Positions 7,512 to 62,043 of a DNA stretch of 64,000 bases are shown here, in pieces (position 1 is the stretch's first letter; each line of letters starts with the position of its first letter). Under the pieces are notes generated by a model, which did no database searches, had not been told where the DNA came from, and saw only the letters and a list, made by a program, of their open reading frames with translations. Source of the stretch: Woeseiaceae bacterium (lineage in GTDB: Bacteria; Pseudomonadota; Gammaproteobacteria; Steroidobacterales; Woeseiaceae); assembly GCA_011772865.1 (NCBI GenBank), contig WVYQ01000009.1:75800-139799 (forward strand), given 5' to 3'. The position numbers were made by a program, and so were the translations under genes.

Positions 7512-7823
7512 ATGCTCGCAGCACGAACAACAGCTTTCCTACGTGGCGCCATCGTCGCGATGCTGGTGATTGCCGCCGGCTGCGAGTCGATGCCCGTGCA
7601 GGAAATGTCTGACGCCCGCCAGGCAATCATGGCGGCGCGCGATGCGGGTGCTGCTGAACATGCGGCCGAACAGCTGATCGCCGCGGAGGCGTCGCTGCAA
7701 AGCGCCGAAAAATACCTCAGTTCGCGTAACTATGCCGTGGCCCGTCGCGAGGCGATCGAGGCCAAGTCTCAGGCGATGGACGCACTCCGCCTGAGCGAGA
7801 CGGCCCGGGGTGAAGAAGACTGA
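7512..7823 (+). CDS. Small DUF4398-like lipoprotein
   Basis: A 103-residue lipoprotein precursor: basic start, hydrophobic core, then lipobox IAAGC with the acylated Cys at 24. The mature part is almost entirely helical and Ala/Glu-rich, with the MAARDAGAAEHA-x-ELIAAEASLQSAE pattern typical of DUF4398 lipoproteins, which are thought to be envelope-associated. In-frame codons continue upstream to a GTG at 7452, but the signal peptide fixes the ATG at 7512. It is divergent from arsC with a 49-base gap. Function unknown. Confidence 0.8.
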   Translation: MLAARTTAFLRGAIVAMLVIAAGCESMPVQEMSDARQAIMAARDAGAAEHAAEQLIAAEASLQSAEKYLSSRNYAVARREAIEAKSQAMDALRLSETARGEED

Positions 7824-7830
7824 CGTTGCG

Positions 7831-8100
7831 ATGCCGGCTGCTCGCCGATTCACGATCAAAGGACGCGTACAAGGTGTCTTCTTCAGAGAAAGCACGCGCC
7901 GCGTAGCCGAGTCTCTCGGCATCACGGGTCATGCGATCAATCTTCGCAACGGCGACGTCGAAGTGCTCGCCTTCGGCGAAGCCGACGCACTGGATCGCCT
8001 GGCGGAATACCTGCGCGACGGACCCACGATGGCCGACGTCGCCGCGGTCTCTTCAGAGAGTATCGATTACGAGCATCACGAGACTTTTACGACGGGCTAA
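7831..8100 (+). CDS. acyP: Acylphosphatase
   Basis: Hydrolyses carboxyl-phosphate bonds of acylphosphates. The 89-residue protein has the typical ferredoxin-like fold length, the phosphate loop GRVQGVFFR with catalytic Arg19, and Asn37 in the NLRNGDVE strand as the second catalytic residue. The usual Trp-Val-Arg just before that Asn reads His-Ala-Ile. I chose the ATG at 7831 over the in-frame GTG at 7810, because the latter would start inside the preceding lipoprotein gene and add seven residues absent from most family members. The stop is immediately followed by an inverted-repeat element. Confidence 0.9.
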   Translation: MPAARRFTIKGRVQGVFFRESTRRVAESLGITGHAINLRNGDVEVLAFGEADALDRLAEYLRDGPTMADVAAVSSESIDYEHHETFTTG

Positions 8101-8101
8101 C

Positions 8102-8176
8102 GCGGAGCCGGGAAGCCTTTTGCGTAAGTAAAGCGCAGCGCAGCGAGCCATGAAGCAAATGGCTTCCCGGCTCCGC
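8102..8176. repeat. Hairpin element with conserved core (copy 1)
   Basis: Perfect 16-base arms (8102-8117 and 8161-8176) extend to 22 bases with one mismatch (8102-8123 / 8155-8176). The loop contains AAGTAAAGCG (8126-8135), nine bases, then GAGCCATGA (8145-8153). The same two blocks with the same 9-base spacing occur on the opposite strand in copy 2 at 61037-61110, although the arms differ. It fills the entire gap between convergent acyP and the lytic transglycosylase gene. It could act as a bidirectional terminator or be a repeated mobile hairpin. Confidence 0.8.
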
Positions 8177-8181
8177 CAGTG

Positions 8182-8754
8182 TCACGCTTTGAACCACTTC
8201 GTGCTGAGCTTATCGATGACCTTGTTCGGATACTTCCGCTTGCCGAGCGAGCCGTTGTACCGTCCAAGGGCGCGGCGGAGGTCGCCTTTTTCCTTTTCGA
8301 GGTAGAACTTCAGGATCGTGCATCCGTAGCGCAGGTTGGTATCGACACGGATCAGGTTATCGCCGGGCCGACCAATTTCGTCTTTCCAGAAGGGCATGAC
8401 CTGCATCAACCCGAGCGCCCCTGCGACCGAAACGGCGTAGCGATCGAAATTACTCTCGACTTCGATCACGGCCAGGATCAGTTCCGGAGGCAAGTCGACG
8501 CGGGCGGCCTCGTAGTGGACCCGCGTGAGGATCTCGATGCGTTCGTCAGGATCGCTGACCTGTCGTTCGAGCCGGGAGGACATGTCCGTCAACCAGACCT
8601 CGGCATGAAACCGGTCCTCAAAGCTGTCGGCCTCGGTGGCGGCGGCCCGCAAAACTTCGCGGAGTTCAGGATCGGGCACCTGTTCGGCGGCGGCAAGAAT
8701 CGGCGCCGCGAGTATCGCGAGGCAGATCCCGAGCTTTATACGGCGTCCAATCAT
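8182..8754 (-). CDS. Periplasmic lytic transglycosylase (SLT domain)
   Basis: Cleaves the glycan strands of peptidoglycan with formation of 1,6-anhydro ends. The 190-residue precursor has a Sec signal peptide (cleavage after about AAA at 21-23). An SLT/GH23 domain occupies residues 85-190, with ELILAVIEVESNFD carrying the catalytic Glu100, then AGALGLMQVMP, and the family YN motif in RYNGSLGKRKYP. It is a short single-domain transglycosylase with no lipobox or membrane anchor. Downstream of proS on the same strand, 25 bases away. Confidence 0.9.
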   Translation of the reverse strand: MIGRRIKLGICLAILAAPILAAAEQVPDPELREVLRAAATEADSFEDRFHAEVWLTDMSSRLERQVSDPDERIEILTRVHYEAARVDLPPELILAVIEVESNFDRYAVSVAGALGLMQVMPFWKDEIGRPGDNLIRVDTNLRYGCTILKFYLEKEKGDLRRALGRYNGSLGKRKYPNKVIDKLSTKWFKA

Positions 8755-58492: not shown

Positions 58493-59890
58493 ATGGTTCG
58501 AGCAGTAGGGGATGGCGTAACAGCTGCGAGCGCAGAGCAGCGACTTAAAGTGCCGCCACACTCGATCGAGACCGAGCAGTCGCTGCTCGGTGGGCTGATG
58601 CTCGACCACAAGTCCTGGGACAAGGTCGCTGATATCGTCTCTGCGGACGATTTCTATCGCAAGGACCACAGGCTGATTTTCTCGGCGATTGCGAGCCTGG
58701 CCGATGACGCCAATCCCTGTGACGTCGTCACCGTTTCCGAGTGCCTCGACAGTCACGGACAGCTCGAAGCAGCCGGCGGTCTCGAGTATCTCGCGTCGCT
58801 GGCCAACGAAACACCGGGCGCCGCCAACGCGCGTTCCTATGCCAGGATACTGCGCGAGCGTTCGATGTTGCGATCTCTAATCACGGCCGGCAACGAAATT
58901 TCCGGTGCCGCCTTTGCATCGGACGGTCGAACGGCCGCCGAGATCGTCGACGAGGCGGAGCGCCTCGTGTTCGAGATTGCCGAGTCGGGATCGCGCGGAA
59001 AATCCGGATTCAGGTCGCTCAAGGATATTCTCCCGGAGGCTGTCGATCGCATCGATATCCTGCATCAGTCCGACGGCGATATCACTGGCATCCCGAGCGG
59101 CTTTGTGGAATTCGACAAACTGACGGCCGGTTTGCAGGGTGGTGACCTGGTCATCGTCGCGGGACGCCCGTCAATGGGCAAGACCACGTTTGCAATCAAT
59201 ATCGCCGAGAATGCTGCGATCGGTGCAAAAATACCGACGGCTGTCTACTCGATGGAAATGCCGTCGCAGCAGCTTGCTTTTCGAATGATATCTTCGCTGG
59301 GGCGTGTCGACCAGACGCACCTGCGCACTGGCAGGTTCCCCGACGAGGACTGGTCGCGCATCAACACGGCCGTCCAGCTCATGACCGAAGCGCCGATCTT
59401 CATCGACGACACGGCAGGTCTCTCACCAACAGAGATTCGCGCACGCGCACGGCGCTTGCAGCGGGAGCACGGCCTCGGACTGATCGTGGTGGATTACCTG
59501 CAGCTCATGAGCGTCCCCGGTAGCAAGGAGAACCGCGCCACCGAGATTTCGGAAATATCACGCTCGCTCAAAGCGCTCGCCAAGGAGTTGTCGGTACCGA
59601 TCATCGCGCTCTCGCAGCTCAATCGGGGCGTCGAGCAGCGCACCGACAAGCGGCCCGTCATGTCGGACCTGCGAGAGTCCGGCGCTATCGAGCAGGACGC
59701 CGATCTGATCATCTTCATTTACCGTGAAGAGGTATACAACCCGGACACACCGCGAAAGGGGATTGCCGATATCTCCATTGCCAAGCAGCGCAACGGCCCT
59801 ATCGGCGACTTTCCGCTGACCTTCGTCGGGCGGTATACGAAGTTTGAAAACTGGGTCCCCGATTCGTACGCGGAAGAGGCGTATCCGTGA
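58493..59890 (+). CDS. dnaB: Replicative DNA helicase DnaB
   Basis: Hexameric 5'-3' helicase of the replication fork. The 465-residue protein has the N-terminal primase-interaction domain (HSIETEQSLLGGLML, DFYRKDHRLIF) and the RecA-like domain with Walker A AGRPSMGKTTFAINIAE. GLIVVDYLQLMS (Walker B), ALSQLNRGVEQR and SDLRESGAIEQDADLI follow. No intein is present. The stop overlaps the GTG of alr by 4 bases, the conserved dnaB-alr order. Confidence 0.97.
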   Translation: MVRAVGDGVTAASAEQRLKVPPHSIETEQSLLGGLMLDHKSWDKVADIVSADDFYRKDHRLIFSAIASLADDANPCDVVTVSECLDSHGQLEAAGGLEYLASLANETPGAANARSYARILRERSMLRSLITAGNEISGAAFASDGRTAAEIVDEAERLVFEIAESGSRGKSGFRSLKDILPEAVDRIDILHQSDGDITGIPSGFVEFDKLTAGLQGGDLVIVAGRPSMGKTTFAINIAENAAIGAKIPTAVYSMEMPSQQLAFRMISSLGRVDQTHLRTGRFPDEDWSRINTAVQLMTEAPIFIDDTAGLSPTEIRARARRLQREHGLGLIVVDYLQLMSVPGSKENRATEISEISRSLKALAKELSVPIIALSQLNRGVEQRTDKRPVMSDLRESGAIEQDADLIIFIYREEVYNPDTPRKGIADISIAKQRNGPIGDFPLTFVGRYTKFENWVPDSYAEEAYP

Positions 59891-60993
59891 CCTTTGGTTC
59901 ACGGGCACTGATCAGGCTCGGCGCACTAAAAACCAACCTCACCGTTATCAGGAAGGCGGCGCCCGGAGCAAAAGTCATGGCCGTCATTAAGGCCAATGCC
60001 TATGGGCATGGGATGGACGCAGTTGCCCGCACCCTCGAAGATGCCGATGCCTTCGCTGTTGCGCGCTTGCCGGAGGCAGTGGCCCTGCATGAGTCTGGCA
60101 TCGAACAACCCCTGGTGTTGCTTTCCGGCGTGCTCACGATGGAGGAGCTCTCCGAGGTTATAGCGCGTGGTTTCCAGATCGTCGTTCACTGCCCGGAGCA
60201 GGTCGACCTGCTCGAGTCGGTTACGGCGGGGCAGACAACCGTCTGGCTCAAGTTCGATACCGGCATGAATCGATTGGGTTTTGCGCCCGAAGCGGCCAGG
60301 ACGCTGATCGACCGGCTGCAAGCCTGCCCGGCTGTGACGGAATTGCGACTCATGTCGCATCTCGCGAGTGCCGACGAGCTCGACAGTCCGGTTACCGAAG
60401 AGCAGTTCGCCCGGTTTCGCAACATCGTCGAAAATTTCGAGGGCGCAGTCAGCGTTGCCAACACGCCCGCGACATTGGGGTGGCCACTAATTGCGGACGC
60501 CAACGAATCGCTGGGATTCAAGGGCGATCACTGGATACGTCCCGGCCTGGCGCTTTTCGGGATCTCGCCATTCGATGGACGATGCGGAAGTGATCTTGGG
60601 CTGACACCCGTGATGCAGTTCGAGGCTCGGCTCATCGCTATCAAGCCGCTTGCCGAAGGTTCACGTGTTGGCTATCGGGGCCGTTACCGTGCCGAGTCGG
60701 AAACGACGCTGGGAATCATTTCAGCAGGATATGGGGATGGCTACACGCGGCATTTTCGCACCGGGACACCGGTACTCATTAACGGCCGCCGGGTGCCGCT
60801 GATCGGCAACGTCTCTATGGACATGATCGCCGTCGACCTTGGCGCAGCTGCGACAGACAGGGTTGGCGACATCGCGACGTTATGGGGTGACGGCCTGCCG
60901 GTCGAGGAGGTCGCGCCGTGGGCCGATGCGATTCCGTATGAACTCGTCTGCGGTGTCATGCATCGCGAGAACTCCGAGGTCGTCGACGCTTAG
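59887..60993 (+). CDS. alr: Alanine racemase
   Basis: PLP enzyme making D-alanine for peptidoglycan. The 368-residue protein has the PLP-lysine motif VMAVIKANAYGHG, the KFDTGMNRLGF block, MSHLASADE, RPGLALFGISP, and the second-base Tyr region VGYRGRY with the GYGDGYTR and GNVSMDMIAVD segments. The GTG start at 59887 is coupled to the dnaB stop (GTGA). A 180-base gap with a hairpin element follows. Confidence 0.96.
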   Translation: MTFGSRALIRLGALKTNLTVIRKAAPGAKVMAVIKANAYGHGMDAVARTLEDADAFAVARLPEAVALHESGIEQPLVLLSGVLTMEELSEVIARGFQIVVHCPEQVDLLESVTAGQTTVWLKFDTGMNRLGFAPEAARTLIDRLQACPAVTELRLMSHLASADELDSPVTEEQFARFRNIVENFEGAVSVANTPATLGWPLIADANESLGFKGDHWIRPGLALFGISPFDGRCGSDLGLTPVMQFEARLIAIKPLAEGSRVGYRGRYRAESETTLGIISAGYGDGYTRHFRTGTPVLINGRRVPLIGNVSMDMIAVDLGAAATDRVGDIATLWGDGLPVEEVAPWADAIPYELVCGVMHRENSEVVDA

Positions 60994-61036
60994 GAATCCG
61001 CCCAGCGTGCGTCCTTTACGTCGGTCACCCGACCAC

Positions 61037-61110
61037 GCGAGCCGGGTATCTATCTCACTCATGGCTCCCTTCGGTCCGCTTTACTTCGCTCGATAGATAC
61101 CCGCGCTCGC
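61037..61110. repeat. Hairpin element with conserved core (copy 2)
   Basis: GGGTATCTATC (61044-61054) pairs with GATAGATACCC (61092-61102), extended outward by GCGAGC/GCTCGC with a one-base bulge. On the minus strand the loop reads AAGTAAAGCG (61077-61086), nine bases, then GAGCCATGA (61059-61067), identical in sequence and spacing to the core of copy 1 at 8102-8176. It lies in the 180-base gap between convergent alr and the FHA gene; the rest of the gap shows nothing else. Confidence 0.8.
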
Positions 61111-61173
61111 GGGTCTCGCAAACATTGCGACGAGCCATCGGCGGGCCTCGACGGAGAAGTCGTTAAACGGATG

Positions 61174-62043
61174 TTACGAGGCGAAGAACCCCATCTTGAC
61201 GCCCGCCAGTTGAACCACATCGTTGTCGGTCAGCTTGCGCGCCTGTGCGCCGATCGGCTGCCCGTTGACCAGCGGGAAGTCGTCTTCCGTTCCCGATTCG
61301 ACATGAACGATGTAGTAGCCCTCGGCGCGCCGCGTAATGGCGGCAACCTGCACGCCGGGGCGGCCAAGAGTCGTCAGCGCCTTGGTAAGTTCTAGTTCGC
61401 GGCCCGCAAACGCGCCGCTCAGTACCTGCAGCTTGGCGAGCGGCAGGGCGTTTGGCGCCGACGTCGGGTCGATGCCGGCTTGAGTTTCAGCATGAGTCTC
61501 GGCATGCGACGGCTCTTCTTCGGCGACTGTCTCGCCCAAAGAAGGCGCCTTCGGCTTTTCGTCGAGCGGCTCGAGTTCTTCAGCATTGAGCTTGACGCCT
61601 GCTGCCGCAGCATCTTCCATCGGCGATTCCGGCCCCTCCATTGCCGCCACAGCTTCGTCGGCAGCTTTTTCCGCCGCGGCAAGTTGCTCGGCGTTTTGCT
61701 GGCCGGCGGGAATGACCATCGTCTTTTCGAATTCGTCTTGCTCGGTCTGGGGTTCCTGCTGGTCGGAGAATCGCAGCTGGTGATGGCCGATCGTAATGAC
61801 GTCACCGTGCTGCAGAGCATGCTTTTTGATCAGCTTGCCATTGACATAGGTGCCATTGGTGCTGTTCAGGTCCTCGAGAAACGAGTCGTTGAGAATATTG
61901 ATAATCAGCGAATGATGACCACTCACGGCCGGGTTATCGATGCGCACATCGTTATCCGGGAGGCGCCCAATTGTGTAGCGCTCCTTCGTCATGTTGTATT
62001 CAGCCAGAACCTGGTTGTCCAGACTAAGAATTAACCGTGCCAT
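61174..62043 (-). CDS. Protein with two FHA domains
   Basis: A 289-residue cytoplasmic protein. The N-terminal FHA domain (about 1-95) keeps the phosphothreonine-binding residues: GR at 26-27, S41 and H44 in SGHH, and NG at 63-64 within LNSTNGTYVNGK. An acidic, Ala/Glu-rich linker (about 95-200) follows. A second FHA-like domain (about 203-289; KLQVLSGAFAGRELEL, PLVNGQPIG) lacks the SxxH and may not bind phosphothreonine. It is the last gene of a minus-strand group after PP2C and the kinase, so it is a probable adaptor or kinase substrate. Confidence 0.9.
   Translation of the reverse strand: MARLILSLDNQVLAEYNMTKERYTIGRLPDNDVRIDNPAVSGHHSLIINILNDSFLEDLNSTNGTYVNGKLIKKHALQHGDVITIGHHQLRFSDQQEPQTEQDEFEKTMVIPAGQQNAEQLAAAEKAADEAVAAMEGPESPMEDAAAAGVKLNAEELEPLDEKPKAPSLGETVAEEEPSHAETHAETQAGIDPTSAPNALPLAKLQVLSGAFAGRELELTKALTTLGRPGVQVAAITRRAEGYYIVHVESGTEDDFPLVNGQPIGAQARKLTDNDVVQLAGVKMGFFAS

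Follow-up and report, generated by a model that had tools for sequence, protein, structure and literature searches.

Introduction

REPs are extragenic palindromes that occur singly and as inverted pairs between convergent or tandem genes, tolerate G·T pairs and show alternative complementary residues in their stems, according to the sections of PMC3733652 drawn on here. The hairpin family described below resembles REP/BIME/REPIN elements in being composed of short extragenic palindromes, present in tens of copies, single or as inverted pairs, placed at gene 3' ends and with G·T pairs in their stems; it differs from them in lacking, in most copies, the GTAG/CGTC tag (REP families are mostly tagged in >90%), in stems of ~29 bp (REP stems: mostly 6–9), in a conserved asymmetric internal loop, in site-specific outer arms and in copies that do not track RAYT. 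Since the tests for the REP tag and for the transposase failed and a U-tract terminator was unsupported, the family was filed as a new variant of the dispersed extragenic palindromes and not as REP. The integron attC site is a folded single-strand hairpin with a variable stem, is recognised on one strand and conserves the base of its stem; by this general description the present family is set apart, conserving the apical part instead.

ERIC, bcr1, NEMIS/Correia, BRE and others are families of repeats that form hairpins, are scattered mainly between genes and possibly function as RNA (PMC2267715 and PMC3110155, in the parts used); they are defined by similarity along the repeat, whereas copies of the present family share the core and inner arms alone, a distinction based on those descriptions and not on consensus sequences. 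Template switching can create stems, make multi-base compensatory changes and invert loops (PMC8794818, in part), and it homogenises arms and inverts spacers (PMC8604942, in part). Perfect stems made from local sequence, compensatory changes and loop inversion are common to such quasi-palindrome mutations and to the family; the cases described in these parts concern microRNAs, rRNA and yeast genes, whereas here template switching would be the arm-building step of a dispersed bacterial element.

The window is a stretch of 64,000 nt of a Woeseiaceae bacterium; it holds two copies of the element (Table 1).

Results and Discussion

Table 1. Positions of the two window copies, their parts and the flanking genes.
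Feature	Positions	Strand	Basis
Copy 1, full model span (R1 positions 1–92)	8094..8185	+	cmsearch, 75.3 bits; model built with copy 1
Copy 1, hairpin (outer and inner stem, core)	8102..8176	+	fold
Copy 1, portion matching the shared unit (model positions 15–77)	8108..8170	+	identity step; boundary inferred from the family, may vary by subfamily and lies further out in the small own-genome pair set
Copy 1, conserved core AAGTAAAGCG-N9-GAGCCATGA	8126..8153	+	sequence, alignment
Copy 1, apical mini-hairpin GC-GCA-GC (C(GNA)G triloop)	8138..8144	+	
Copy 2, full model span	61027..61118	-	cmsearch, 62.7 bits; model built with copy 2
Copy 2, hairpin	61037..61110	-	fold
Copy 2, portion matching the shared unit (model positions 15–77), inferred	61042..61104	-	identity step
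Copy 2, conserved core	61059..61086	-	sequence
Copy 2, apical mini-hairpin CC-GAA-GG (compensatory alternative to GC-GNA-GC)	61068..61074	-	
Acylphosphatase gene, flanks copy 1	7810..8100	+	PF00708; stop ends at 8100
SLT lytic transglycosylase gene, flanks copy 1	8182..8754	-	PF01464; stop at 8182
Alanine racemase gene, flanks copy 2	59887..60993	+	PF01168 and PF00842; ends at 60993
FHA-domain protein gene, flanks copy 2	61174..62043	-	PF00498; stop at 61174

Copies 1 and 2: The 28-base core that the sequence-only reading had seen in both copies was confirmed, all 19 block positions being identical and 5 of the 9 spacer bases matching; with ≤3 mismatches, the core pattern matched twice in the window vs 0.02 matches expected from dinucleotide shuffles. 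The long hairpin fold of both copies had z of −4.7 to −6.9 over the four strands folded. The hairpin of copy 1 occupies most of the 81-nt gap (8101–8181) separating two stop codons, and by stop coordinates and Pfam-named neighbours both copies lie between two convergent genes, as had been read. The shared GAGCCGGG between otherwise differing arms is present as well, with the nuance that, because the cores point in opposite directions, it is the same (3') arm in both copies, taken along the core strand.

Anatomy: The model was a nearly ungapped alignment of 81 copies, in which position i pairs with position 92 − i and outer and inner stem together make 29 bp. Inside the stem stand G32·A60 (74 of 81), A33·G59 (75 of 81) and A34-U58 (80 of 81), followed by a 5 × 2 loop (GUAAA/CA), G40-C55, C41-G54, G42·A53 and a 2-bp mini-stem with a triloop. 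The shared unit is made up of ~16-bp inner arms, the conserved asymmetric internal loop GAAGUAAAGCG/GAGCCAUGA and the apical C(GNA)G mini-hairpin; the latter was present in 185 of 210 distinct copies, N being free (triloops: GCA 96, GAA 51, GTA 37, GGA 5), and its mini-stem alternates between GC/GC and CC/GG. In subtypes GAA/UGA is replaced by GAA/UUC or AAA/UUU, i.e., by Watson–Crick pairs; the tip is lengthened in L042, L111, L121, L141 and L522/L525. By eye, the L064 gap (homologous to L103, 6651–6742) has an insert of ~130 nt seemingly in the loop, between GAAGT and CCATGAGGGAG, the arms still pairing. Mini-hairpins of the d(GCGAAGC) type are extraordinarily stable in DNA. The part of PMC10527192 used here agrees with this stability in general terms. 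This is a hint, short of proof, that folded DNA matters.

Own genome: A search for further copies had been proposed together with the core. In the own genome (3.26 Mb, 46 contigs, 84.6% complete) it gave 14 core matches at ≤3 mismatches, of which 11 are exact, 2 have one mismatch and 1 has three; the reversed pattern, used as control, gave 0. All 14 copies have complementary arms and 13 fold as a long hairpin (128 nt folded), L013 folding otherwise. Nine extra matches from a looser pattern, all with 3 mismatches, were rejected as near chance level (controls: 5).

Other genomes: Among named genomes, at least 111 stretches carry the core pattern; the matches listed are mostly from Woeseiaceae or from unclassified Gammaproteobacteria/Proteobacteria MAGs, often with several copies per record. 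Good-armed copies were also found in Coxiellaceae MAGs (L040, L061, L067, L146) and on contigs of one Myxococcota MAG (L118, L132), where they may reflect horizontal transfer or mis-binning. At ≤2 mismatches the pattern matched in 30 of 73 same-genus genomes (0–56 copies per genome) and in 1 of 46 other genomes of the order, that match looking like chance. With the model (E ≤0.001) the element was found in 16 of the 24 same-genus genomes tried that had no pattern match and in 6 of 6 with some; in the remaining 8 of the 24 no element was found at this threshold. Class-wide, 3 of 369 genomes matched (the own one, G064, and G171 of another family), counts that are lower bounds owing to strict filters and to at most 11 candidates being scored per genome. 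G171 gave 10 model matches at E ≤0.01, some of them weak. Five copies of this 1.5 Mb genome (L190, L193, L195, L198, L201) were seen to share flanks beyond the hairpin, roughly AACAAGG..CCTTGTT followed by ..CGATGTTCAAA, so that the travelling unit seems to be longer there. The element is spread over Woeseiaceae-type genomes, with up to dozens of copies per genome, and is rare elsewhere. Woeseiaceae are a group of marine sediments.

Databases: No gathering match to Rfam was obtained on the two window copies, and at E ≤5 no bacterial family matched the element in 9 + 8 loci (17 in total; Rfam 15); two weak matches to microRNA precursors on G171 copies were far below cut-off. At least 120 stretches of viral contigs contained a 14-base pattern, with one weak model match (29 bits, L310) among those 120, so that a viral link is unsupported; blastn with copy 1 as query found nothing in plasmids. 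No description of this hairpin family was found in the literature searched; the family is large and apparently has no known name.

Covariation: Of 144 pattern hits, 7 were left out for short flanks; of the 137 measurable, 119 have complementary arms (score ≥10, median 19; swapped-arm control: median 5). The remaining 18, which were excluded from the G·T/A·C count, comprise 11 in unrelated phyla that look like chance and 7 in genomes of the true-copy type (decayed, divergent, duplicated or other). Exact core-pattern matches in unrelated phyla (L053, L054, L055 and others) have no arms and look like chance. In the 81 copies, 85.3% of cells pair in the stated structure vs 61.5% in shuffled and 34–43% in slid alignments; 735 cells are changed on both sides vs 236 in shuffles, and 31 of 35 pairs show double changes vs 28.5, counts that overstate independence because the copies are related. 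The structured nucleic acid with covarying stems, put forward in the sequence-only reading, is therefore strongly supported by the double-changed cells and the complementary arms. Neither outcome that would have overturned that reading, a genome devoid of other copies or arms failing to covary, was observed.

Strand asymmetry: With the register fixed by Watson–Crick pairs alone, G·T vs A·C on the core strand was 198:37. In a second, overlapping set split by gene context it was 135:31 (convergent), 64:11 (tandem-antisense), 14:2 (divergent), 31:12 (tandem-sense) and 10:0 (unplaced), i.e., an excess of G·T of 2.6–7 to 1 across gene contexts. G·T exceeds A·C in every context, and the folded form of the core strand is therefore constrained, whatever the direction of the neighbouring gene; in the alignment the ratio was 92:10 for inner and 82:30 for outer arms, and the constraint is greatest in the inner arms. 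The covariation and the one-strand G·U tolerance are compatible with RNA as well as with folded single-stranded DNA. Were the element a structured RNA (a small RNA, or a site of 3'-end processing or protein binding) that is transcribed from the core strand and that selection maintains at many sites, its arms would covary simply for folding; such an RNA would account for the covariation, the G·T excess on the core strand and the conserved asymmetric internal loop with its replacements in subtypes; against it stand an asymmetry that is no weaker for an antisense core strand (5.8:1) than for a sense one (2.6:1), the varying spacers of pairs and the patchy copy number, and we regard this explanation as rather unlikely.

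Boundary of the shared unit: The boundary was taken from 351 copy pairs with dissimilar flanks and inner arms ≥85% alike (positions 16–30). Identity falls from 0.88/0.90 at position 15 to 0.48/0.45 at 14 and to 0.26–0.28 at 3–4, a step that partly results from choosing pairs by inner identity, position 15 alone lying outside the selection; composition alone gives 0.44/0.53 at position 15 and ~0.3 at 14. Despite this drop, pairing at positions 8–14 stays at 0.76–0.98 in the same pairs. From the one-step drop at 14–15 with pairing continuing outward it follows that the shared unit is ~63 nt and that the outer stem belongs to the site. Identity at positions 8–12 is somewhat above the composition expectation, and the boundary varies within single genomes, lying further out in the small sets of G000 (6 copies) and G051 (7 copies). 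The ~63-nt unit recurs at unrelated gene 3' ends; the outer stem of 7–11 bp (up to 45 bp in one genome) is little or not alike between copies, yet mostly paired. Selection on an RNA alone would not be expected to give this step, nor the perfect site-specific inverted flanks described below. The inner arms also vary between copies, with covariation, and this is unexplained by site-made outer arms.

Inverted flanks: In G038, 8 of 13 inverted pairs have ≥14 nt of perfect inverted flank outside the cores (45, 40, 31, 29, 18, 16, 15 and 14 nt) vs 4 of 156 cross-pairs in the control; single hits (L590, L592, L593) were left out of the 13. The outermost 14 nt of these flanks are absent from the other 12 loci; several flanks are partly the shared end (up to ~14 nt), and 5 of the 13 pairs are devoid of a 14-nt inverted flank. 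A composite of ~300 bp was seen by eye to recur in G038. At L588 the 45-nt arms include the 3' end of the right-hand gene, TCAAACCACCCGTC, which looks native (TCAAACCACCCGGC in the element-free homologue L602, TCAGACCACGCGAC in L601); an inverted copy of this end lies on the far side of the element, behind the left open frame. The homologous gaps thus indicate that the flank was probably duplicated in inverted orientation at L588, a tracing that concerns one site with divergent homologues (74–83% alike) and not sister strains. Sixteen homologous gaps (flanks ≥74% alike) contain no complete core by pattern, L600 being truncated where its contig ends, with half of an element visible. In the ten-genome set, near-perfect long outer arms were not seen; candidates outside G038 were rejected, the alignment drifting into random sequence with identity mostly of 0.6–0.8. 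The mobile hairpin with arms remade at each site, one of the options of the sequence-only reading, is supported for the outer stem, direct evidence of copying coming from one site only (L588).

Terminator-like flanks: In L584 the 40-nt inverted flanks (337–377 and 720–760) each hold a GC hairpin and an outward T7 run (GGGGCAGGCCCCTTTTTTT); these flanks are terminator-like sequence duplicated in inverted orientation.

Homologous gaps: Of 116 comparisons, 101 had the element in the target as well (many being the same genome twice) and 15 were called empty; L442:4323, L371:2499 and L440:2505 were not used, either because gene calls overlap or because the gap is of equal or greater length, and four sites were left. 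Their empty gaps measure −3, 9, 3 and 16 nt vs 82, 87, 139 and 165 nt with the element (flanks 65–78% alike). Such gaps are too short for a hairpin, so either the element brought its outer arms along or the relatives lost entire hairpins by deletion. Where homologous copies had the element on both sides (flanks 81–88% alike), the arms were 0.87–0.93 alike in three of four comparisons and 0.45 alike in the fourth; vertical inheritance is clear at some sites, the rpsJ–rplC gap among them, and not all variation is therefore new insertion.

Flipped cores: Same-gap coincidences between assemblies amounted to 26 rows or 23 distinct locus pairs vs ~2–6 expected, a count that is too high, since the presence of an element was what brought each locus into the set. 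In 9 of the 23 distinct pairs the best-matching cores are in opposite orientation, the arms often being alike at chance level only. Such flips would also be expected if neutral quasi-palindrome correction alone kept the arms complementary, the repeats being functionless and not moving now, since stems can arise and persist, and loops can be inverted, through template switching (PMC8794818 and PMC8604942, in the parts used); that process would yield neither 13–56 element copies in a genome nor inner arms that are almost the same from one unrelated site to another, nor by itself a G·T bias of the core strand that is strongest in the inner arms, and as a sole cause it is extremely improbable.

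rpsJ–rplC: In 50 relatives (of 53 genomes with an rpsJ match) the rpsJ–rplC gap measures 358–754 nt. A loose pattern (3 mismatches) was rejected here for its chance matches, and the model was used instead: 22 loci matched at E ≤0.05, 21 of them inside the gap (that of L538 lies outside; L562 is the weakest and doubtful), as 13 inverted pairs and 8 single hairpins, all 8 singles being antisense to rpsJ. Among first hairpins, 39 homologous comparisons gave 62 cells with double compensatory changes, 36 with a single G·U change and 23 in which pairing is broken; L547, seemingly out of register, contributes another 9 comparisons, in which the corresponding counts are 47, 7 and 79. Part of the paired changes lie in clusters, and the spacer of 45–68 nt drifts and is not conserved. 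The conservation of the element here, with paired substitutions exceeding breaking ones beside a spacer that is not conserved, is in favour of the structured RNA considered above. Four loci (L522, 535–785; L524, 477–707; L525, 531–802; L527, 481–712) have an inverted hairpin pair in this gap, followed, as judged by eye, by a −35/−10-like promoter and a long structured-looking leader. Another palindrome was seen by eye in the same place in L536 and L539, which gave no model match.

Insertion into existing hairpins: The outer arms might instead be the stems of host hairpins (transcription terminators) that were there beforehand and took up the unit in their loops. The GC-rich outer arms of 7–11 bp, copies placed directly after stop codons and the other palindrome in L536 and L539 are in line with this; empty gaps of −3 to 16 nt leave it no room (with flanks 65–78% alike, these could be deletions of whole hairpins instead of uninserted sites), the gap homologous to that of copy 1 in L115 is ~85 nt shorter, the L588 homologues L601 and L602 have no such palindrome, and no U-tract follows the outer stem. 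Taken together, this origin of the outer arms is improbable.

Placement and polarity: Placement was scored with a home-made gene caller in ten genomes, for copies in which ≥13 of 20 arm positions pair; this set of 159 includes 13 of the 14 copies of the own genome. Convergent genes flank 92 of the 159, tandem genes 55 and divergent genes 8, and another 4 are at locus edges. Gaps ≥70 bp that contain no element number, in these loci, 16 between convergent, 89 between tandem and 77 between divergent genes. The purely convergent placement read from the window copies is thus too narrow for the family. For copies in tandem gaps ≤120 nt from a stop codon, the core strand opposes the gene that ends there in 30 cases and agrees with it in 10; at >120 nt the polarity reverses (antisense 4, sense 11). 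For single convergent copies (n = 78) the nearer stop is on the 3' side in 50 and on the 5' side in 24. Close pairs are inverted in 11 of 13 cases, with the 5' sides facing; such pairs are numerous in G038 and G005, and their spacers vary. The polarity may be due to selection and not to the insertion mechanism. The sequence-only reading had also offered a protein-bound terminator; a terminator of the U-tract form was not borne out: on the core strand, 5% of 156 copies have TTTT within 15 nt, on the opposite strand 2%, vs 2.6% at random, and the mostly antisense core strand near stops in tandem gaps speaks against it as well. In L163 (~1300–1700) another REP-like repeat (GTCGCCCGCATGGCGGCCTCCTACAAG) was seen arrayed around the element in the same gap.

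Mobiliser: An element of the REP/BIME type, moved by RAYT or another HUH transposase, would agree in palindrome forms, G·T tolerance and placement with what the part of PMC3733652 used here reports for REPs, and GTAG near the 5' base is somewhat above random (19 of 159 copies, 12%, vs 3.3% for random 22-mers). That frequency is low for a tag, and CGTC was found in 15 of 159 copies (random: 14%). No Y1_Tnp (RAYT) was found in G000, G001, G012, G025, G026 and G035, several of them copy-rich; it is present in G039, G041, G042 and G043, all four giving no model match. Stems of ~29 bp instead of mostly 6–9 are a further difference, and this explanation is considered very unlikely. Y1_Tnp was found in 41 of 73 genomes searched (45 of these of the own genus), presence not tracking copy number, and RAYT was rejected as mobiliser for the genomes searched; these may be incomplete or have lost the gene, and several copy-rich genomes lay outside the search. 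A reverse transcriptase was likewise rejected, occurring in 3 of 23 genomes, two of them with copies, again with no tracking. The 1.57-kb stretch between two G005 copies (L508), considered as a full-length transposon between paired copies, contains an open frame of 375 aa that is probably an ordinary gene, and was set aside. No direct target duplication ≥8 nt, such as would go with the terminal inverted repeats of a MITE of a DDE transposon, was found among the 159 copies; the longest direct repeat between 20-nt windows at the stem bases was 0–5 nt in 150 and 6–7 nt in 9, so that a short duplication is possible.

Preferred explanation: We consider it probable that the family is a dispersed non-autonomous REP/MITE-like hairpin element that spreads as a folded strand and has its outer arms produced on site by fold-back (template-switch) copying. 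The unit would spread in the form of a folded single strand, of which a putative factor recognises the core, and would insert beside stop codons with preferred polarity. After insertion, fold-back (intrastrand template-switch) DNA synthesis would copy the adjacent flank in inverted orientation and would make, extend and later repair the arms, as one site and the general pattern suggest. The same synthesis could also invert the loop, by which the flipped cores at homologous gaps would be explained. In the cell, the very stable 3'-end hairpin may separate or protect convergent transcripts, and the host may tolerate or use it in a capacity other than that of a U-tract terminator. The stronger statement is made tentatively: that this could be a new type of bacterial mobile repeat, which travels as a folded single strand with core and inner arms only and builds the rest of its palindrome at each site by inverted copying of the neighbouring gene end (an inverted, not a direct, target duplication), the outer stem recording the insertion site.

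Conclusion

The family is widespread in the genus of the window, with no Rfam 15 match in the loci scanned. The inverted duplication of the flank, if confirmed, would be an unusual insertion signature. Covarying stems are usually read as selected RNA structure; here the complementarity of the outer stem seems to be largely made on site by a DNA process, and the strand-specific bias in the inner stem points to a real constraint on the folded strand. The hairpin family separates both causes of covariation in many natural replicates.
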